Shown: in pieces, positions 312 through 6,801 of the stretch
Position numbering within the stretch: the first letter of the stretch is position 1
Layout of the letters: every line of letters starts with the position of its first letter
DNA from: a bacterium
Lineage (GTDB): Bacteria > BMS3Abin14
Length of the DNA stretch: 6,801 bases
Direction: 5' to 3'
NCBI GenBank assembly: GCA_029210545.1
Contig: JARGFV010000125.1
Location: 1-6,801, forward strand
Position numbers and translations under genes: made by a program
Notes under the pieces: model-generated
Database searches by the model: none
What the model was told of the DNA's origin: nothing
What the model saw: the letters and a program-made list of their open reading frames with translations, nothing else

Positions 312-1421
312 ATGAGCGTGCCACCCCTCTTCCATTTCGCTGAATCTTATAACGACGCCGACCAGTTCTACCTGTCCGGTTTCCTGTGCCCGGACCCTTT
401 CGCTGTCCTCGAGCTGGGCAGGGGGAAGGTCGTCCTGGCGGTCTCCCCCATGGAGGAGGAGAGGGCCCGGACCGAGTCGACGGGTGAGCGGGTGATCGCC
501 CTGCGCCGCCGCAAGGGACAGAACCTGGTCCAGGGCCTGGCCGGGTTCATCCGCGGCAACGGCGCCGAACACGTCAGGGTCCTCCCGGGCTTTCCCCTGG
601 GCCTTGCCAGGGAGCTGAGCAAGGAGAACATCGGCATCGAGGTGGACGGGAAAAGCCTGGCTGTCCGTCGGCGGAAAAAGACGGGGGGACAGATCCGGGC
701 CATCCAGCAGGTTCAGCGGGGGTGTGAATCCGCCATGGAGATGGCGCGGTCCCTCCTGGCAGGATGCCCGGTTCGAGCCGGGGTGCTGATCTTCGAAGGC
801 CGTCACCTCACGGCCGAACGCCTTCGCGCCCTCATCGAGATCCACCTCCTCGAAAGGGGCCTTGAGACTGCCGACACCATCGCCGCCCCCGGACGGGGAG
901 GCGCCCGGCCCCACTGGCGGGGCGAGGGGCCCGTCAGGGCCGGGGTCCCCATCGTCATCGACATCTTTCCAAGGTCCCGGGAGACACGGTACCATTCGGA
1001 CATGTCCCGGACCTTCGTGGTGGGCCGGGCGTCCGCGACGGTCCGGGAGATGCACCGGGCGGTGTGCGAGGCCCAGGATGCCGCCCTTCACGTCCTGGGG
1101 GCGGGAGTCGCCCTCGACGACGTCCACAAGGCTGTGTGCGACGTGTTCCGCAGGAGGGGATACGGGGTCCCCGCAGGGGGAAAAACGCCCCGGCGGGGAT
1201 TCCTCCACGGGACCGGCCACGGGCTGGGTCTCGAGGTCCACGAGACCCCCTCGGTTTCGGTGACGGGGGATATCTTCGGACCCGGGGACGTGGTTACCGT
1301 GGAGCCGGGCCTTTACGACCGCCGGATCGGGGGTGTCCGGGTGGAGGACGTGGTGGCGTGTATGCCGGACGGGTCGGTCCGGAATTTGACAAAATTTCCC
1401 AGGGACCTGGAAATTTTGTAG
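312..1421 (+). CDS. M24-family metallopeptidase, Xaa-Pro dipeptidase/aminopeptidase-like
   Basis: A predicted cytoplasmic peptidase of the 'pita-bread' fold (369 aa) that would release N-terminal residues or split dipeptides with proline in the second position, using two divalent metal ions. Residues 1 to about 125 form a creatinase/prolidase-type N-terminal domain; about 130-369 form the catalytic domain. All five metal ligands are visible: Asp217 (VIDIFP), Asp230 (HSDMSRTF), His303 (GTGHGLG), Glu331 (TVEPGLY) and Glu345 (GVRVED). His201 and His310 sit where the family has its accessory active-site histidines. Length is normal for PepQ-like members. The ATG at 312 is the first possible start after an in-frame stop at 279-281; it has only a weak upstream AAGG. 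There is no signal peptide. The last 15 codons lie in a long hairpin. Family assignment is firm, but exact substrate specificity cannot be read from sequence. Confidence 0.93.
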   Translation: MSVPPLFHFAESYNDADQFYLSGFLCPDPFAVLELGRGKVVLAVSPMEEERARTESTGERVIALRRRKGQNLVQGLAGFIRGNGAEHVRVLPGFPLGLARELSKENIGIEVDGKSLAVRRRKKTGGQIRAIQQVQRGCESAMEMARSLLAGCPVRAGVLIFEGRHLTAERLRALIEIHLLERGLETADTIAAPGRGGARPHWRGEGPVRAGVPIVIDIFPRSRETRYHSDMSRTFVVGRASATVREMHRAVCEAQDAALHVLGAGVALDDVHKAVCDVFRRRGYGVPAGGKTPRRGFLHGTGHGLGLEVHETPSVSVTGDIFGPGDVVTVEPGLYDRRIGGVRVEDVVACMPDGSVRNLTKFPRDLEIL

Positions 1422-1436
1422 GTCAAATTCCGGACC
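1376..1436 (+). repeat. Long near-perfect hairpin spanning the stop codon of the M24 gene
   Basis: The outer arms GGTCCGGAATTTGAC (1376-1390) and GTCAAATTCCGGACC (1422-1436) are perfect 15-bp complements. Inside them AAAATTT (1391-1397) pairs with AAATTTT (1411-1417), and CCAGG (1399-1403) pairs with CCTGG (1406-1410), leaving a two-base loop, a bulged C and a four-base bulge GTAG that contains part of the stop codon. The left arm encodes the conserved C-terminal RNLTKFP of the peptidase. There is no T-run after it, so it is not a classical terminator. It may act as an mRNA 3'-end stabiliser, or be a by-product of template switching. Confidence 0.85.
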
Positions 1437-1439
1437 CAT

Positions 1440-1534
1440 GAAACGGTGAATCGGCGAAACGGTGAAACGGAGATAAAACGAACCAACGAAACAGTGCCTT
1501 TCCCCCGTGTCTCCCCATCCCCGCATCCCCGTGT
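1440..1534 (+). repeat. Degenerate octamer array between the M24 and DUF362 genes
   Basis: Seven consecutive 8-nt units fill 1440-1495, all starting with GA. GAAACGGT is found at 1440-1447 and 1456-1463, GAAACGGA at 1464-1471, and the later units are more diverged. After a short gap a second array of four 8-nt units covers 1503-1534, with CCCCGTGT as first and last member and CCCCGCAT third. Unit length is kept exactly while the bases drift. No coding potential is evident and it does not resemble CRISPR repeats, which are longer and separated by unique spacers. Function is unknown. Confidence 0.75.
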
Positions 1535-1563
1535 CGTTGAGAGCATCCCGGAGCTAATTCACC

Positions 1564-2721
1564 ATGACATCAAATAAAATTCCCGTAGCTATTGAACGTT
1601 GTAAGAGTTATGAGCCGGAAAAAGTAAAGGATGCTCTCAACAGGGCACTCGATCCCCTTGGGGGAATGAGTGCCTTCGTTTCCCCCGGTGATCGAGTGCT
1701 CCTCAAGCCCAACTTCCTGGCTCCCCGACCCCCTGAAAAGGCCGTCTGTACCCACCCGCAGGTTGTCAGGGCTGTAACGCAGGAGGTCATGGAAGCCGGG
1801 GGGAGAGTGTTCCTGGGCGACAGCCCGGGGGTGGGTTCTCTCACCGGCGTCCTGAAAAGATCGGGAGTTATGGAGGTGGTGGAGGAGCTCGGGATCGGGC
1901 TCGTGCCGTTCAGGACCCCGGTCCAGGTCCCTGTTCCGGAAGGCGGGGTCTACAAATCCATCCTGCTGGCCGAAGAGGCCCTCGGGTTCGACCGGATCAT
2001 CAACCTGCCCAAGTTCAAGACCCACGGGATGATGACCCTGACCCTGGCGGTGAAGAACATGTTCGGTACCGTTGTGGGCGCGGCCAAGCCGGGGTGGCAT
2101 CTCCAGGCTGACGAACACGCCCGGTTCGCCGACATGCTCCTGGACCTGTGGCGCGCACTGCCCCCGGAGCTTTCCATCCTGGACGGGATCACCGCCATGG
2201 AGGGCAACGGCCCGGGCTCAGGCGACCCGTTCCACCTCGGGCTCGTCATCGCGTCACCTTCAGCCCTTGCCCTGGACCAGGTCGCCGGTGAGATCGCCGG
2301 TGTGGGCCCCGAACGTCATCCGATCATCTACCGCGCCCGGCAAAGGGAGCTTAAGGGGAGCCGGCCAGGCGAAGTGCAGGTTCACGGCAGGCAGGTCGGC
2401 GAGGTGAAACGTGATTTCGCGCTTCCCGGCAGCGCTTCCAGGGTGGACTACAAGCTTCCCCCGTGGGCCAAACGGCGCCTCAAGACTTCCCTTAACTCCT
2501 ATCCGGCACTGGACCCTGAAAGGTGCACTACCTGCGGGGAGTGCGCCGGGATCTGTCCGGTTAACGCCATCACCCTCCACGCCATGGAAAAGGGGGGCGG
2601 CATCGTTGACCGCGACCTTTGCATCAGCTGCTTCTGCTGCCAGGAGATCTGCCCGGAAAGGGCGATCGAGCCGGTTCCGGGAAGACTTCTCAGGCTGTTA
2701 AAGGTGATCGGTGCAGCCTGA
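1564..2721 (+). CDS. DUF362 domain protein fused to a C-terminal two-[4Fe-4S] ferredoxin domain
   Basis: A 385-aa predicted cytoplasmic iron-sulfur protein. Residues 1 to about 300 carry the DUF362 (COG2006) signature elements: KPN at 48-50, GDSPG at 85-89, LPKFKTH at 148-154 and KNMFG at 164-168. Residues 318-366 form a bacterial ferredoxin domain with two CxxCxxCxxxCP motifs: Cys321, 324, 327, 331 and Cys353, 356, 359, 363, plus an extra Cys358. All eight cluster ligands are intact, so two [4Fe-4S] clusters and an electron-transfer role are expected. The DUF362 half has no established reaction that I can assign, and such proteins are common in anaerobes. The start is supported by GGAG at 1550-1553, ten bases upstream. 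It follows the M24 gene on the same strand after a 142-bp repeat-filled gap, so an operon is possible but not shown. It converges on moaA. Confidence 0.93.
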   Translation: MTSNKIPVAIERCKSYEPEKVKDALNRALDPLGGMSAFVSPGDRVLLKPNFLAPRPPEKAVCTHPQVVRAVTQEVMEAGGRVFLGDSPGVGSLTGVLKRSGVMEVVEELGIGLVPFRTPVQVPVPEGGVYKSILLAEEALGFDRIINLPKFKTHGMMTLTLAVKNMFGTVVGAAKPGWHLQADEHARFADMLLDLWRALPPELSILDGITAMEGNGPGSGDPFHLGLVIASPSALALDQVAGEIAGVGPERHPIIYRARQRELKGSRPGEVQVHGRQVGEVKRDFALPGSASRVDYKLPPWAKRRLKTSLNSYPALDPERCTTCGECAGICPVNAITLHAMEKGGGIVDRDLCISCFCCQEICPERAIEPVPGRLLRLLKVIGAA

Positions 2722-2726
2722 GAAGT

Positions 2727-2835
2727 GCACGTGCGTCCGTGGAGCGTAGGTGCGTACGTGCGACAGAGCAGGATAGCAGAGGTGAAGGTTGTGATGTTTT
2801 TACGCACACACGCATGCACGCTTTACGCACAAACG
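2727..2835. repeat. Degenerate octamer words with complementary arms in the convergent DUF362/moaA spacer
   Basis: The spacer between the two convergent genes holds GTAGGTGC (2746-2753), GTACGTGC (2754-2761), GACAGAGC (2762-2769) and AGGATAGC (2770-2777) in strict 8-nt phase. A second set, ACGCACAC (2802-2809), ACGCATGC (2810-2817) and ACGCACAA (2825-2832), is in nearly the same phase, with one 7-nt unit. The two sets are complementary: 2750-2762 can pair with 2803-2815 around one two-base internal loop. Placed between converging genes, the fold could serve as a two-way terminator, although no clear T-run follows either arm. Confidence 0.6.
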
Positions 2836-2841
2836 ATTACG

Positions 2842-3870
2842 TTACCCGCCAATATGGCTCATCGTCCTGGCACACGCCCGCACGACCTTCCCCCCCGCCA
2901 TCCCGTGACCCTCAGGTTTTCGCGACAGTGCCCCCCCGATGAGGGAAAGGATCTCCTCGTCCGAGGCCGCTGACCGCAGGGGTGTGAGAAGGTCGGTCTC
3001 GTTATCGGAAAACAGGCATGTGCGCAGGTGACCGTCGGCGGTGATGCGGATGCGGTTGCAGTTGACACAGAAGTGTTCGGAGATGGGGGTGATGAATCCA
3101 ACGGTCCCTTCGTGTCCGGGGATGCGATAGCGCACTGCCGGACCGGATCCCCTCCCCTTGCCCATGCGCTCCAGTGAACCGTGGACCGTCTCCAGGCGGG
3201 CGATGGCCTCGGCGGCGCTCATCACCTTTTCCAGCCCCCAGAAACCGTCGGGGCCCATGGGCATGAACTCGATGAACCGGACTTCGCAATCCTGCTCCCG
3301 CGTAAGCTCGGAAAACGCTTCCAGCTCGTCGTCGTTGAACCCCCGCATGAGGACCACGTTTATCTTGACGGGATCCAGGCCTTCCTCCCTGGCTTTTTCC
3401 AGCCCCTTGAGCACCGTCTGGACCCCCCCTCCGTGGCCGTTGCCGTTGGGATCGGTCACCCACTTGAACCGGTCGTCCCTGAGAGTGTCCAGGCTCACGT
3501 TCACCCGGGACAGGCCCGCCCGGCGAAGGTCCGGAGCCATCTCCGCCAGGAGGAGTCCATTGGTGGTAAGGCTGATGTCGGAGATCCCGGGGATCCCGGA
3601 CAAGATGGTGATGAGGGAATCCAGGTGCTTGCGCACCAGGGGTTCCCCGCCGGTGATGCGGACGCTTGTAACACCGCGACGCGACAGGATCCCGGCCAGG
3701 CGGCCGATCTCCTCGTAGGAAATGATGTCGCTGTGGTTCAGGGCCGCGAAACCGGCCCTCGGCGCACAGTAGCGGCAGCGCAGGTTGCACCGGTCGGTGA
3801 CCGAGACGCGCATGTAGCGGACTGGCCTGCCCTTCCCGTCAGCCAGCACTGTATTTTCTCGAGTTGTCAT
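2842..3870 (-). CDS. moaA: GTP 3',8-cyclase MoaA (radical SAM, molybdenum cofactor biosynthesis)
   Basis: Catalyses the first step of molybdopterin synthesis in the cytoplasm: radical-SAM conversion of GTP to 3',8-cyclo-GTP, which MoaC then turns into cyclic pyranopterin monophosphate. The 342-aa length is usual. The radical-SAM cluster motif is Cys28-x3-Cys32-x2-Cys35, followed by GGEP at 74-77. The second, GTP-binding [4Fe-4S] cluster is held by Cys268-x2-Cys271-x13-Cys285 within the family's CNRIRITADGHLRTCLF stretch. The chain ends in the conserved Gly-Gly tail (341-342). A glycine-rich stretch, DPNGNGHGGG (140-149), looks like a small insertion relative to typical MoaA. The ATG at 3870 has AAGG about eight bases upstream. 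No other moa or moe gene is in the window. A Moco riboswitch and terminator lie in its leader, predicting repression by the cofactor. Confidence 0.96.
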   Translation of the reverse strand: MTTRENTVLADGKGRPVRYMRVSVTDRCNLRCRYCAPRAGFAALNHSDIISYEEIGRLAGILSRRGVTSVRITGGEPLVRKHLDSLITILSGIPGISDISLTTNGLLLAEMAPDLRRAGLSRVNVSLDTLRDDRFKWVTDPNGNGHGGGVQTVLKGLEKAREEGLDPVKINVVLMRGFNDDELEAFSELTREQDCEVRFIEFMPMGPDGFWGLEKVMSAAEAIARLETVHGSLERMGKGRGSGPAVRYRIPGHEGTVGFITPISEHFCVNCNRIRITADGHLRTCLFSDNETDLLTPLRSAASDEEILSLIGGALSRKPEGHGMAGGKVVRACARTMSHIGG

Positions 3871-3900
3871 GTGTTCTGCCTTGTTGGTGGTCAGGTCAGC

Positions 3901-3935
3901 CCGTTACAGTAACGGTGTGATCACGCCTTTGGCGT
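3901..3935 (-). promoter_or_regulatory. Palindromes in the moaA leader between terminator and start codon
   Basis: Three inverted repeats cluster 31-65 bases before the moaA ATG: CCGTTAC-A-GTAACGG (3901-3915), GTGATCAC (3917-3924) and ACGCC-TTT-GGCGT (3923-3935), the last two overlapping by two bases. They could be hairpins in the leader RNA past the terminator, or a protein operator. GTTAC/GTAAC segments offer alternative pairing between the first and third elements. I recognise no known regulator's site; they do not match the ModE consensus as I know it. Confidence 0.4.
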
Positions 3936-3993
3936 AACAGGCGGGGTGTCGGTGTGCCGGAGAAAAACATCAGTGTGATTCTTTCCCTCATAA

Positions 3994-4030
3994 CTGAAAA
4001 AACAGGCCACGGAAAGGGCCTGTTTTTCAG
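3994..4030 (-). terminator. Intrinsic terminator forming the riboswitch expression platform before moaA
   Basis: On the minus strand CTGAAAAACAGGCC (4030-4017) pairs with GGCCTGTTTTTTCAG (4008-3994), giving 14 bp with one bulged base and the loop CTTTCCGT. The descending arm contains six U (4002-3997), a good Rho-independent terminator. It begins exactly where the Moco aptamer ends and lies 124 bp before the moaA ATG, so it fits premature termination of the moaA transcript. The stem also has a U-run when read on the plus strand, so it could stop plus-strand transcription too. Confidence 0.85.
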
Positions 4031-4136
4031 GTCTCCTTTCCAAGAAACGGGAGGCCGGGCCGTTTCCAGCCGGACCCATCGGCCGGCCGCCGTGGGCATT
4101 TCGATCGGCCCCTGCAGGCGGTTCGGCTCGGAGAAA
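4030..4136 (-). promoter_or_regulatory. Moco riboswitch (molybdenum cofactor RNA motif) upstream of moaA
   Basis: On the minus strand the segment starts CTCCGAGCC (4133-4125) and ends with GCCTCCCG (4055-4048), a short linker and GGAAAGGAG (4041-4033). As I remember it, this 3' block closely matches the E. coli moaA leader, the founding member of the Moco RNA motif. The fold fits: closing helix TCTCC (4134-4130) with GGAGA (4036-4032); an internal helix GCCCA/TGGGT flanking a GC-rich hairpin; and a small stem GGCTG-GAAA-CGGCC (4071-4058) with a GNRA-type loop. Position and orientation, directly before a terminator and then moaA, are as expected. Such elements switch moaA off when the cofactor is bound. 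A form sensing tungsten cofactor has been proposed for members lacking one helix; the extra stem here favours Moco, but this is inference. Confidence 0.85.
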
Positions 4137-4156
4137 ATATGTAAACGCAGTACACC

Positions 4157-4162
4157 CTTATA
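4157..4162 (-). promoter_or_regulatory. Weak candidate -10 box for the riboswitch-moaA transcript
   Basis: The minus strand reads TATAAG here (overlapping TAGTAT at 4160-4165). Transcription would start about 15 nt before the aptamer, a sensible place. The -35 region at 17-bp spacing reads TTCCTT, a poor match, so this is only a positional candidate. Confidence 0.3.
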
Positions 4163-4194
4163 CTAGGTAAGTTACGGAAAAGGAAGGAGAAATA

Positions 4195-4225
4195 TAGTGT
4201 CTGGTGTCTTGGGTCTAGTGTCTGG
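4195..4225 (+). repeat. Degenerate heptamer array in the moaA upstream spacer
   Basis: Four 7-nt units run without gaps from 4195: TAGTGTC (4195-4201), TGGTGTC (4202-4208), one diverged unit, then TAGTGTC again (4216-4222), followed by TGG. TAGTGTCTGG thus recurs 21 bases apart. The rest of 4226-4345 shows no gene, only pyrimidine-rich sequence such as CCACC repeats at 4272-4284. Confidence 0.7.
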
Positions 4226-4260
4226 AACGATCCTGGGCGAAGGATAAAGAGTGAAGAACA

Positions 4261-4318
4261 AAGGCCTGATTCCACCTTCCACCCCTTCGATCGCGCCGTG
4301 GACGTGACTCAGGGCCTT
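4261..4318 (-). terminator. Possible weak terminator after the tat operon
   Basis: AAGGCCTGA (4261-4269) and TCAGGGCCTT (4309-4318) are complementary apart from one bulged base, with a 39-nt loop. On the minus strand the last arm is followed by a T-rich stretch (TTTGTTCTTC). It lies about 30 bp beyond the stop codon of the last tat-operon gene. The loop is long and the T-run broken, so this is tentative. Confidence 0.3.
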
Positions 4319-4345
4319 GGGCTTCCCCTTTCCACTTCCTGAATT

Positions 4346-5461
4346 TTACAGCATCAATATCCGGCTCTTCAATATCAGGATCTCGAAAGCCACCGAGGCC
4401 TTCTGCATGACCCGGACGAGGAAGGCGGCCTCTTCCTCGGTGATGCCGGAGGTGAACTTGAACCCGACGATGACCGAAACGGTGTGCTTTTTAAGCAGCA
4501 GGGGGCAGATCACCACCTCCCCGGGCACTTTCATGCTGAGTTCCTTGAGCCAGGGGTTGCTCTCGAAAAGGTCCACTCCCCGGAACCGCTCCAGGGTCCT
4601 CGATTCCCGGATGTTGAACAGGACGTTCTGGAAGTTCACCGGCAGGGCCATGCTCCCGAAATCGACCACCGGTTTGGCCGATCCCCCGGACATCCAACCC
4701 AGCGCCTCGTCTCCCTTGATGATGAACAGGAAGGCGTCATCCATGAACCTCAGGCCGGCCCTGATGAGGGTCTGGGCGACATCGTCCCTGTTGTGGATGC
4801 CGAAAAACGCGTCGTTGATCCCGGTGATGTCGAGGGGGTCGAAGGGCTCCATGTCCTCTTCGGTGAGCTCCACGAGTTCAACCAGCTCCGCCTCCACCAG
4901 CTCCGCTTCCGCAAACTCCGCTTCCGCGGAATCCGGTACTGCCGGAACCGGGGCCGGCGCCTGCCCGGAGGCCGACATCCGTTTCTGTTCGGCGGCCACA
5001 TCCTGGCTGACGGCGATGTACCGGGCTTCGCGCCTTATGCTGTAGTACTTCTCCAGCGCCTGGACGATGCGCAGCTCGCTGGCGATGACCGGCTGGATGA
5101 TCATGTTGGTCTGGAACGCTACCTCGTCAACGATGTCCAGCTTGTGGGGGTCGGTCATGGCCAGGGTGATACGCTTCCCGTCGAGGGCGATGGGCACGAT
5201 GCGGTACATTTCGAGGAGCTTCTTGGGGACCGAGTCCAGGACGGGCCTGGGGATCTTTTCGAAGTGCTGCGGCTCGGCGTAGGCGACGTTGAACTGAAGG
5301 GCGAGAAGCTTCATGAGAGCGTCTTCGGTGATCGCTCCCATCTCCAGGAGGTTGGTCCCGAGGCGGCCGCCGAAGATGACCTGGCGCTGGAGGCCTTCAG
5401 CCAGGATCTTCTCGGTCACCAGACCTTTTTCAATCAGCAGTTGACCCAGGTTCTTCTTCAT
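4346..5461 (-). CDS. MshEN (GspE/PilB N-terminal, c-di-GMP-binding type) protein with GAF-like C-terminus and no ATPase
   Basis: A 371-aa soluble protein. Residues 1 to about 145 form an MshEN domain, the N-terminal module of type II secretion and type IV pilus ATPases. Two 24-residue motifs are seen at 4-27 and 33-56, separated by exactly five residues, the arrangement known for c-di-GMP binding. The second keeps the leading RLG; the first has NLG, so ligand binding is not certain. Residues 160-206 are an Ala/Pro- then Glu-rich linker with EAELVEAELVELVEL repeats. Residues about 210-371 resemble a GAF-like alpha/beta domain. No Walker A (GxxxxGKT) is present, so it is not a secretion ATPase despite the likely automatic name GspE. 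GGGAGAG (minus strand, 5475-5469) seven bases before the ATG fixes the start. Its first 32 bases overlap the end of tatC, arguing for coupled translation. Function is unknown; a regulator or adaptor is plausible. Confidence 0.85.
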   Translation of the reverse strand: MKKNLGQLLIEKGLVTEKILAEGLQRQVIFGGRLGTNLLEMGAITEDALMKLLALQFNVAYAEPQHFEKIPRPVLDSVPKKLLEMYRIVPIALDGKRITLAMTDPHKLDIVDEVAFQTNMIIQPVIASELRIVQALEKYYSIRREARYIAVSQDVAAEQKRMSASGQAPAPVPAVPDSAEAEFAEAELVEAELVELVELTEEDMEPFDPLDITGINDAFFGIHNRDDVAQTLIRAGLRFMDDAFLFIIKGDEALGWMSGGSAKPVVDFGSMALPVNFQNVLFNIRESRTLERFRGVDLFESNPWLKELSMKVPGEVVICPLLLKKHTVSVIVGFKFTSGITEEEAAFLVRVMQKASVAFEILILKSRILML

Positions 5462-6209
5462 CGGTCAACTCTCCCGAGGTATCCGTGAGGGGTTTCCTGC
5501 CGAAAATCCGGGCCACGACCACGCTGATCTCGAAAAGGATGATCAGGGGGCCTGCCATGAAAAGCTGGGTGACGACGTCAGGGGGTGTCAGTACGGCGGC
5601 CCCGATGAAAGCGACCACGATGAAATAGCGCCGGTTCTTTGTCAGCATCTGGTGGGTCAGGAGGCCTATGCGCGCAAGGAAATAGGTGATAAGCGGCATC
5701 TCGAAGACGAAACCGAAGGCCAGCAGGAGCTTGGTGGCGAAGGAGAGGTACTCCTTGAGCGAGGGGAAGGGACGGATGACGTCGGTGGCAAATCCGAGCA
5801 GGAACTTGAACCCGAAGGGGAAGACGACAAAGTAGCCGAAGCTGGCTCCCGTGATGAAGAACAGGGTGGAAAAGATGACGAAGGGAACAACCGTCCTTCG
5901 CTCCTGGGCGTGCAGCCCCGGAGCGATGAAGGCCCAGAACTGGTAGAAGAGGATCGGCAGGGAGAGAAAAACGCCTGCCAGGAGCGAGACCTTGAGGTAG
6001 GTGAAAAACGCCTCGGTCACCCCTGTAAAGATCATCCACGAGTTGTTTTCCGGCAGCGACGCGATGAGAGGGATGGCGACGAATTCGAAGATCCGGTCCT
6101 TGAAGGCGTAACAGACCAAAAAGCCCACACCCACCGCAATGGCGCTCACGATGAGCCGCTTGCGCAGTTCCTCGAGGTGGACTGTGAAGGGGAGCCGGTT
6201 TTCAGACAT
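5430..6209 (-). CDS. tatC: Sec-independent (twin-arginine) protein translocase subunit TatC
   Basis: The inner-membrane receptor for twin-arginine signal peptides, which works with TatA/TatB to export folded, often cofactor-containing proteins. The 259 aa show six hydrophobic segments (roughly 19-36, 70-92, 107-130, 155-178, 194-208 and 213-233). Family motifs are intact: HLEELRKRL at 11-19 with the signal-peptide-contacting Glu14, PFGFKF at 131-136, Glu170 in FEMPL, and RRYFIVVAFIGAAVLTPPD at 193-211. An acidic tail follows residue 245. Its ATG overlaps the end of the upstream tatA/B-like gene by eight bases (ATGTCTGA), and its end overlaps the downstream MshEN gene, so the three genes form one translationally coupled unit. 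Confidence 0.97.
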   Translation of the reverse strand: MSENRLPFTVHLEELRKRLIVSAIAVGVGFLVCYAFKDRIFEFVAIPLIASLPENNSWMIFTGVTEAFFTYLKVSLLAGVFLSLPILFYQFWAFIAPGLHAQERRTVVPFVIFSTLFFITGASFGYFVVFPFGFKFLLGFATDVIRPFPSLKEYLSFATKLLLAFGFVFEMPLITYFLARIGLLTHQMLTKNRRYFIVVAFIGAAVLTPPDVVTQLFMAGPLIILFEISVVVARIFGRKPLTDTSGELTDEEEPGSTAD

Positions 6210-6606
6210 TCCCGGGTTCGTCGGTGGAATCGTCCGGGGTCTCGCCGCCGCCTTCGATCTCCTCCAGGTTGTACGAGATCCCGGACTCGGCTTCGGGTGC
6301 GGTTTCGGCGGATGCCGATGCGGTTTTTTCGTCCCCGGTCACAGGGGGGGTGGTTTTGTCCCCGGAAGGCCCGCCCTGGTCGTCTTCCTCTTCCGGGACC
6401 AGGTCGGGGTACTTTTTGCGGAACTGCTCATGCTTGTCGCGCTCCAGGTCCACACGGACTGTGGACTGGAGGTCGTCGGCCGCCTTCTTGAACTCGGCGA
6501 GCCCCTTGCCCAGTGTCCGGGCCAGGTCGGGAAGCTTCTTGGGCCCGATGACGATGAGGGCGACGACGAGGATGATGATGATTTCCTGCATTCCAATGCC
6601 TAACAT
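6202..6606 (-). CDS. TatA/TatB-family twin-arginine translocase subunit
   Basis: A 134-aa single-span inner-membrane partner of TatC. Residues 7-20 form the short N-terminal transmembrane helix, followed by the Gly-Pro hinge (21-22) and the amphipathic helix (about 23-50). The remainder is an acidic, low-complexity tail that is probably disordered. Glu8 at the start of the membrane helix and the long tail are TatB-like, while the overall N-terminus (MLGIGMQE) is also seen in TatA, so I do not choose between tatA and tatB. An ATG ten codons upstream (6636) is in frame, but ATG 6606 is preferred: GGAG (minus strand, 6615-6612) lies five bases upstream and the N-terminus then matches the family. 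It is the first gene of the tatA/B-tatC-MshEN operon. No second TatA-type gene is in the window. Confidence 0.93.
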   Translation of the reverse strand: MLGIGMQEIIIILVVALIVIGPKKLPDLARTLGKGLAEFKKAADDLQSTVRVDLERDKHEQFRKKYPDLVPEEEDDQGGPSGDKTTPPVTGDEKTASASAETAPEAESGISYNLEEIEGGGETPDDSTDEPGNV

Positions 6607-6621
6607 GAGATCTCCAGGGAT

Positions 6622-6723
6622 GAGTGCAGAGTACAAAGTGCAGGATGCAGAGTTATAATGAAATACAAGGAATTGAGAATTGAGAACAAAAGCGGCTTAT
6701 GCATTACTTCCTCAACCCTCAAC
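6622..6723. repeat. Degenerate heptamer arrays upstream of the tat operon
   Basis: Units GAGTGCA (6622-6628), GAGTACA (6629-6635), AAGTGCA (6636-6642) and GGATGCA (6643-6649) follow in exact 7-nt phase. Further on, AATTGAG occurs twice in tandem (6671-6684) and CCTCAAC twice in tandem (6710-6723). The last two pairs are complementary in minus-strand RNA if G-U wobbles are allowed (GGUUGAG with CUCAAUU, twice), with a 25-base loop. The 195-bp segment 6607-6801 contains no gene. Confidence 0.7.
6653..6658 (-). promoter_or_regulatory. Candidate -10 box for the tat operon
   Basis: The minus strand reads TATAAC here, 47 bases before the tatA/B ATG, giving a plausible leader of about 40 nt. No -35 match is visible at 17-bp spacing (ATTCTC), and the complementary plus strand also reads TATAAT (6654-6659). 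The alternative is transcription from a gene beyond the right edge. Confidence 0.25.
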
Positions 6724-6731
6724 CATGATAG

Positions 6732-6766
6732 GGTCGCAAAAAGTCCAATCCGGGACTTTTCGCTCC
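6732..6766. repeat. Hairpin with AAAAGTCC/GGACTTTT core at the right edge
   Basis: AAAAGTCC (6739-6746) pairs perfectly with GGACTTTT (6753-6760) across a six-base loop. After a mismatch the flanks continue GC/GC (6736-6737 with 6762-6763) and GG/CC (6732-6733 with 6765-6766). A/T runs on both outer sides of the core make a two-way terminator possible. The flanking genes to the right are not in the window. Confidence 0.6.
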
Positions 6767-6768
6767 AC

Positions 6769-6798
6769 GGAAAGGGAAAAGCGTCGTTTTCCCTTTCC
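6769..6798. terminator. Second, perfect 12-bp hairpin at the right edge
   Basis: GGAAAGGGAAAA (6769-6780) and TTTTCCCTTTCC (6787-6798) are perfect complements with the six-base loop GCGTCG. It begins three bases after the preceding hairpin. The stem is strong but no T-run follows within the window, so a terminator role is likely rather than certain. Confidence 0.5.
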
Positions 6799-6801
6799 TT
6801 A

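Follow-up and report, generated by a model that had tools for sequence, protein, structure and literature searches.

Degenerate heptamer and octamer arrays in the spacers of a bacterial family: a shared lexicon and a unit length that seems to be inherited at the site

The window analyzed here, the entire 6,801 nt contig G000:C125 of a bacterial genome (2.72 Mb in 241 contigs, 97.5% complete), encodes an M24 peptidase, a DUF362 ferredoxin protein, MoaA, an MshEN-domain protein, TatC and TatA/B. Between these genes, short words return in phase every 7 or 8 nt, raising the questions of how such arrays are generated, whether each spacer owns its word, and whether the arrays serve a role. Autocorrelation compared with dinucleotide shuffles returned a lag-8 signal for the spacers at 1422-1563 (z 5.4) and 2722-2841 (z 5.0) and a lag-7 signal for those at 3871-4345 (z 2.8) and 6607-6801 (z 3.8), with the remaining lags mostly flat. 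The arrays were also scored singly against shuffles of their own spacer, P being the chance of an equal score at any lag from 5 to 10 anywhere in the shuffled spacer (Table 1). Six of the eight are significant by this measure (P <= 0.03), while two are marginal; the arrays listed in an earlier, sequence-only reading are real, all reside within spacers, and had been placed to within a few bases. The first array begins 18 nt after the stop codon of the M24 peptidase gene and is worn toward its 3' end, while the one at 2802-2835 precedes the MoaA stop codon, in a spacer between convergent genes.

Table 1. Periodic arrays in the spacers of the window.
Array	Positions	Detection and single-array P
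Period 8, TGAAACGG/TGAATCGG...	1439-1493	TRF, shuffles; P<0.01
Period 8, TCYCCGYG family (CCGTGTCTCCCCATCCCCGCATCCCCGTGTC)	1503-1535	shuffles; P 0.007
Period 8, around GTGCGTAC, after DUF362 stop codon	2744-2777	TRF, shuffles; P 0.03
Period 8, weak, around ACGCACAC	2802-2835	shuffles; P 0.10
Period 7, GTGTCTG/GTGTCTT/GGGTCTA	4193-4226	TRF, shuffles; P<0.01
Period 7, GTGCAGA..., 5' side of tatA/B gene	6619-6650	shuffles; P<0.01
Period 7, GAATTGA	6669-6687	TRF, shuffles; P 0.013
Period 7, weak, CCTCAAC	6708-6725	TRF, shuffles; P 0.07

To place the window in its genome and family, we sampled 0.8 Mb of the window genome and 0.4 Mb each of G008 and G001, which belong to two other genera of the same family; genes were called by a simple codon model, and spacer and coding DNA were measured separately. 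The spacers of the window genome displayed a lag-7 z of 25.5, with echoes at 14 and 21, and a lag-8 z of 7.8, and the coding DNA responded mainly at multiples of three. Congruently, a segment detector recovered 220 arrays in 157 kb of spacer against 2 in Markov-simulated spacers, 119 of them with period 7 and 61 with period 8; the corresponding numbers were 131 and 25 in G008, and 118 and 26 in G001. The genome-wide spacer autocorrelation proposed in the sequence-only reading is hence positive, and its picture of degenerate 7/8-mers largely restricted to spacers and alike in style holds. Phase-variation repeats, which are near-perfect and switch contingency genes, do not match these arrays, which are degenerate, have a median of about four units and, in the window, adjoin housekeeping genes. 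Over four unit steps, unit identity decreased from 0.80 to 0.59 in the window genome (period 7) and from 0.71 to 0.41 in G001, a fall that is partly built in because arrays are detected by neighbor similarity. In all three genomes, the G+C content is higher in period-8 than in period-7 words (0.61 against 0.45 in the window genome, P 4e-5, with words within the lexicon not being independent). G-quadruplex formation was rejected, with a pattern of three-G tracts present in 11 of 180 window-genome arrays.

The arrays are unevenly distributed. Their density reaches 1.4 to 2.8 per kb of spacer in the window genome, G008, G001 and G003, and most of the family bears them, whereas genus g5 is nearly free of them, with about 0.1 per kb in G004 and G009. 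The spacer between the M24 and DUF362 genes measures 142 nt in the window and 12 and 27 nt in these two genomes, and the orthologous spacers of g5 are far shorter, in line with a general compaction. Among other taxa, the density of period-7 or period-8 arrays at TatC-bearing loci is about 0.1 per kb, apart from a few rich loci, and array-rich genomes also occur in unrelated families, up to 2.3 per kb in G076 for stretches picked by pattern match. The trait is thus patchy across taxa. This pattern bears on the notion that an error-prone polymerase makes the arrays, the candidate being a second DnaE of about 1013 aa adjoining a Y-family polymerase. The cassette is intact in the window genome, G001, G003, G007 and G010, split or partial in others, and absent in G004 and decayed in G009, precisely the two array-poor genomes. 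However, this is one phylogenetic contrast, confounded by the compaction of g5, and the array-dense G076, outside the family, possesses an ordinary DnaE only, so that we consider this origin very improbable. Other candidate makers were also rejected: no reverse transcriptase was found in the array-rich window genome and G001, MutS-domain proteins are present in 12 of 12 genomes, arguing against loss of mismatch repair, and Y1/REP transposases occur both with and without arrays. Reverse transcription, MutS loss and the second DnaE cassette are unlikely general causes.

The six-gene order of the window is kept over much of the family, and the orthologous spacers reveal which property of an array persists. 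Where both genomes carry arrays, the main period agrees in 32 cases and differs in 7. In a concordance test, with the four window spacers entered by hand and periods permuted among loci within each genome, agreement was seen for 41 of 54 genome pairs against 32.8 expected (permutation P 0.007), a figure that rests on about 17 loci, with those of the window weighing most. The words behave differently, since their similarity at orthologous spacers, 9.6 of 14, equals the chance level set by non-orthologous arrays (9.4). Presence of an array correlates weakly between orthologous spacers of 80-450 nt (P 0.04), and not at all overall. Sites thus seem to pass on their unit length and not their word, and slippage in whole units combined with point mutation would give both. 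An array may grow and shrink by slipped-strand copying, one unit per step, which would lock the unit length even as point mutations arise and are propagated along the array; words would reach further loci when longer stretches are copied. Whole-unit slippage, together with copying of words among loci and with a subset of arrays acting as 3'-end hairpins, is in our view the best reading of the data, and we hold it to be slightly more probable than all else combined.

Copying among loci is addressed by the words themselves. We counted array pairs with an identical doubled word and compared them with letter-permuted words. For period 7, the window genome contained 69 such pairs (12.9 for permuted words), G008 145 (8.3) and G001 284 (14.2), and between genomes we found 108 for the window genome and G001 (8.5) and 20 for G008 and G001 (9.8). 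Period-8 words were shared by 17 pairs within the window genome and by 16 between it and G001, against 1.2 in either case. As these values lie far above those of permuted words, the lexicon is common to loci and mostly to genera. The claim that each spacer has its own word consequently did not survive: the word of the array at 1503, for which one search gave 17 or so places elsewhere in the window genome, occurs at 22 loci of the window-genome sample (0 for its reverse), and it is spread family-wide, the word at 4195 is found at 8 loci in G008, and that at 6622 recurs at other window-genome loci and in G008 and G003. The words at 1440, 2746, 6671 and 6710 were seen once each in the sample. Variation falls on certain letters of a word, as in TCYCCGYG and GTGATTN. 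The latter is strong within the family, matching in 8 of 12 genomes; a universal heptamer lexicon across phyla nonetheless finds no support, as GTGATTN matched in 7 of the 374 outside genomes and a permuted word in 4 (the reversed control is confounded here, since both it and the word are matched by (GTGATTA)n).

Dispersed homology covers more than half of the arrays, and the earlier view that they represent a shared style rather than one dispersed repeat is correct as to style, but underrates dispersal and the sharing of words. One could suppose that mobile, MITE-like hairpin elements, inserted as multi-word composites whose arms later decayed and slipped, left the arrays behind as debris. 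Such an origin is congruent with the homology and with G001, where long mosaics of several heptamer words repeat their order at several loci and dispersed composites of nearly 200 nt share 90% identity. Pointing the same way are a hairpin form of about 55 nt, alike in its loop and in the order of its arms, which recurs in four genera (G008, G003, G002 and the window genome), and a separate REP/MITE family active in the window genome. On the other hand, the commonest word has unrelated flanks, no fixed ends or target duplications were found, many arrays are solitary, and the presence of Y1 transposase does not track array density. Moreover, orthologous spacers agree in period and not in word, and overall we judge mobile debris a rather unlikely source.

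The word at 1503 extends beyond the family. In its TCTCCGTG form (TCYCCGYG) it gave 32 matches in the window genome and 0 for a control of the same composition. Allowing one mismatch, TCTCCGTGTCTCCGTGTC was found in 10 of 12 family genomes and in 14 of 374 outside genomes, the same-composition control in 2 of 12 and 1 of 374, respectively (Fisher P 0.0009 for the outside genomes). The separate permuted control was employed because the reversed octamer is itself a cousin, CACAGAGG, present in 17 outside genomes. G213, likewise not a family member, has its matches on opposite strands, separated by a few tens of bases and paired in the same order. Although TCYCCGYG arrays are mostly unpaired, the family sample holds nine close inverted pairs with gaps of 10-124 nt, all nine outward-facing. 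Carriage by phages was rejected, as the octamer occurred in 16 stretches among 2.9 million viral contigs and the control in 3.

These observations invite the idea that a DNA- or RNA-binding protein, either IHF/HU-like or a global regulator, uses the arrays as multi-site landing pads, where it would read a short core at 7-8 nt spacing; variable letters would then be free positions, and opposite-strand pairs would bring two assemblies together. Recurrence of words over loci and genera, variation at certain word positions, the single orientation of the TCYCCGYG pairs and the identical octamer in unrelated genomes, set against its matched control, all speak for a bound site, and IHF/HU binding has been proposed for the same kind of pairs in Geobacter metallireducens (PMC2700814). 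However, several dozen unrelated words coexist within the window genome, orthologous spacers carry different words, no co-occurring protein was identified, and a location after stop codons is unusual for a transcription regulator. As a general account of the arrays, we regard protein binding as improbable, about on a par with mobile debris. Still, slippage alone explains neither the octamer in unrelated phyla nor the one-way TCYCCGYG pairs. A bolder combination, to which we give a little more credit while considering it doubtful, is that CACRGAGR/YCTCYGTG, with its tandem units and one-way inverted pairs, constitutes a real cross-phylum element that owes its retention to a shared protein or its spread to a shared agent, and that individual sites inherit their repeat length over genus-level time but have their word rewritten.

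Pairing is also seen for other words. Counting arrays of one spacer as an inverted pair when at least 16 of 20 positions match in reverse complement within 150 nt, we found 29 of 172 arrays paired in the window genome, where three control transformations gave 2-6, and 41 of 148 in G008 (controls 2-7). The numbers were 11 of 46 in G003, where one control reaches 8, and 16 of 143 in G001, where direct neighbors are commoner (47). About 11-28% of arrays thus face a reverse-complement array, and pairs of high score numbered 37 against 4. The inverted pairs begin at a median of 15 nt after the stop codon (KS P 0.0006), and arrays are densest in the first quarter of tandem spacers (P 6e-5); between divergent genes they are mildly depleted, except in G001. 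When unit i was compared with its opposite unit, the dyads exhibited no special complementarity (mean P 0.71). As complementarity is not register-specific, we make no claim of selection at the level of base pairs, and fold-back copying is likewise unsupported. The window's own pairs, 1439/1503 and 2744/2802, are weak. The array at 1439-1493 may form a weak dyad with that at 1503-1535, of which it would be the left arm (arm score 8 against -2), and the arrays at 2744-2777 and 2802-2835 together give a good RNA fold (z -3.5) with an ordinary DNA fold (z -0.3), single-strand DNA folding of the spacer 2722-2841 showing nothing unusual. Returning to whole-unit slippage with word copying, opposed arrays around a short loop could form a hairpin in the 3' UTR of the RNA or a cruciform in the DNA, and hairpins behind stop codons may be tolerated, or used as mRNA-end or insulating structures, in the manner of the paired octamers of G. 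metallireducens and the paired heptamers of Xanthomonas. Judged from position and pairing in the sequence, a structural role is possible for the inverted-pair subset. The sequence-only reading had left the choice between an unknown generating process and a structural role; slippage with dispersal would fit most of the data, hence the process need not be an unfamiliar one, while a role is retained as possible for this subset.

Similar architectures have been described under other names. The genome paper on G. metallireducens reports paired opposite-strand sites with tandem GTTGCTYN (class 1), TCTCCGTS[Y] (class 2) or MTYCTGA (class 3), as well as four GGACCGG units in 49 copies (PMC2700814). 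Like the present arrays, these sites are multicopy, with three to five tandem units of 7 or 8 nt at two opposite-strand sites separated by a variable distance. Among the octamers of the window genome the class 2 word dominates, fitting the 1503 word family and not the other words of the window. In contrast, the window genome holds many single, strongly drifted arrays along with its dozens of words; binding by IHF/HU is a proposal for either system. In Xanthomonas, 70-75 inverted heptamer pairs lie near stop codons, the type of pair being conserved between species (PMC4692102). These GGGNATC repeats of Xanthomonas and Nostoc share with our arrays the heptamers, the location in spacers near stop codons, the rarity between divergent genes, the inverted pairs (in Xanthomonas) and a position conserved between species, but their words are others, and in the window family period 8 is common too and words turn over at a site; GGGAATC, GGGGATT and GGGGACT were each carried as doubled word by no array. 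TAACTGA, an intergenic heptamer direct repeat of marine Beggiatoaceae, Cyanobacteria and Bacteroidetes (PMC4679880), is similarly patchy over phyla and mixed with other heptamers in some genomes. It is placed just before start codons in Maribeggiatoa, whereas arrays of the window family prefer the region after stop codons, and 0 arrays in four genomes carry it.

Kinship with the cyanobacterial heptamer repeats, suggested by the earlier reading, is supported: the arrays consist of head-to-tail units of 5-11 nt, exceed a Markov model and are most commonly heptamers, as in the general STRR class. To the extent that the citing papers (PMC4692102, PMC4679880) relate the STRRs of Calothrix and the long simple sequence repeats of Mrazek 2007, the heptamer excess of some genomes is shared, slippage with a polymerase-related unit length has been proposed for it, and the degenerate arrays, large period-8 class and inverted pairs of the window family differ. 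Given the paired repeats described in Geobacter and Xanthomonas, the architecture is already known; within the open-access literature, the additions made here are the large mixed lexicon, the two periods and period agreement without word agreement.

The origin and role of bacterial heptamer and octamer spacer repeats have been a question since the cyanobacterial STRRs, and the findings join three literatures, on STRRs, GGGNATC repeats and the paired octamers of Geobacter, that describe a similar architecture under different names. The window family gives a handle on this question, offering sister genera with and without arrays, one conserved gene neighborhood, and agreement in unit length without agreement in word. 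A further handle is the recurrence of the octamer in unrelated genomes, which stands out against a control of the same composition.

The arrays of the genome studied here and of two other members of its family (G001 and G008) share one compositional pattern, in that the 8-nt units are GC-rich and the 7-nt units AT-rich in each of the three. Adjoining octamer arrays in G001 and in a further family member, G003, a palindromic sequence, GATTGCTTCAC...TTCGCAATGACA, recurs. A long inverted repeat in the window directly precedes the period-8 array that begins at 1439.

The contig, and with it the window, breaks off at 6801 inside a copy of a REP/MITE-like dispersed element, of which some 50 copies were found in 0.8 Mb of the same genome, many of them at 94-100% identity. 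In its full form, the element has inverted repeats at its termini, and the palindromic modules in its interior duplicate in tandem (81 and 42 nt).

A gene for a Y-family polymerase, followed by that of a second DnaE-family polymerase of ~1013 aa, is intact in most of the family. The pair is absent from G004, and G009 retains it only as decayed pieces. This genome and G009, both lacking an intact pair, represent the genus that is nearly free of arrays, and only there do two additional short MutS-domain proteins occur, adjacent to each other.

Features located in the window and in related genomes (G, genome; C, contig; L, sampled stretch)
Feature	Location	Strand	Remarks
Inverted repeat	window 1376-1432		81% over 57 nt; spans end of M24 peptidase gene
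Molybdenum/tungsten cofactor riboswitch	window 4017-4145	minus	RF01055, 63.9 bits; upstream of moaA
REP/MITE-like element	window 6726-6801		TTGATAGGGTCGCAAAAAGTCC..., two hairpins
Polymerase pair	G000:C87:1796-6111 (= L265:1796-6111)		own genome
Polymerase pair	G001:C1:766389-770638 (L266)
Polymerase pair	G009:C46:29153-31506		decayed pieces
Paired MutS-domain proteins	G004:C7:6182-8190
Paired MutS-domain proteins	G009:C8:73800-75793
Palindrome	L121:17600-17760
Palindrome	L127:6900-7100
Palindrome	L134 near 5647	minus
Palindrome	L146:2940-3000

Outside the family, the word GATGTT, included as a control, returned 42 heptamer-array matches in the whole genome of G159. Thus, other lineages carry repeat lexicons of their own.
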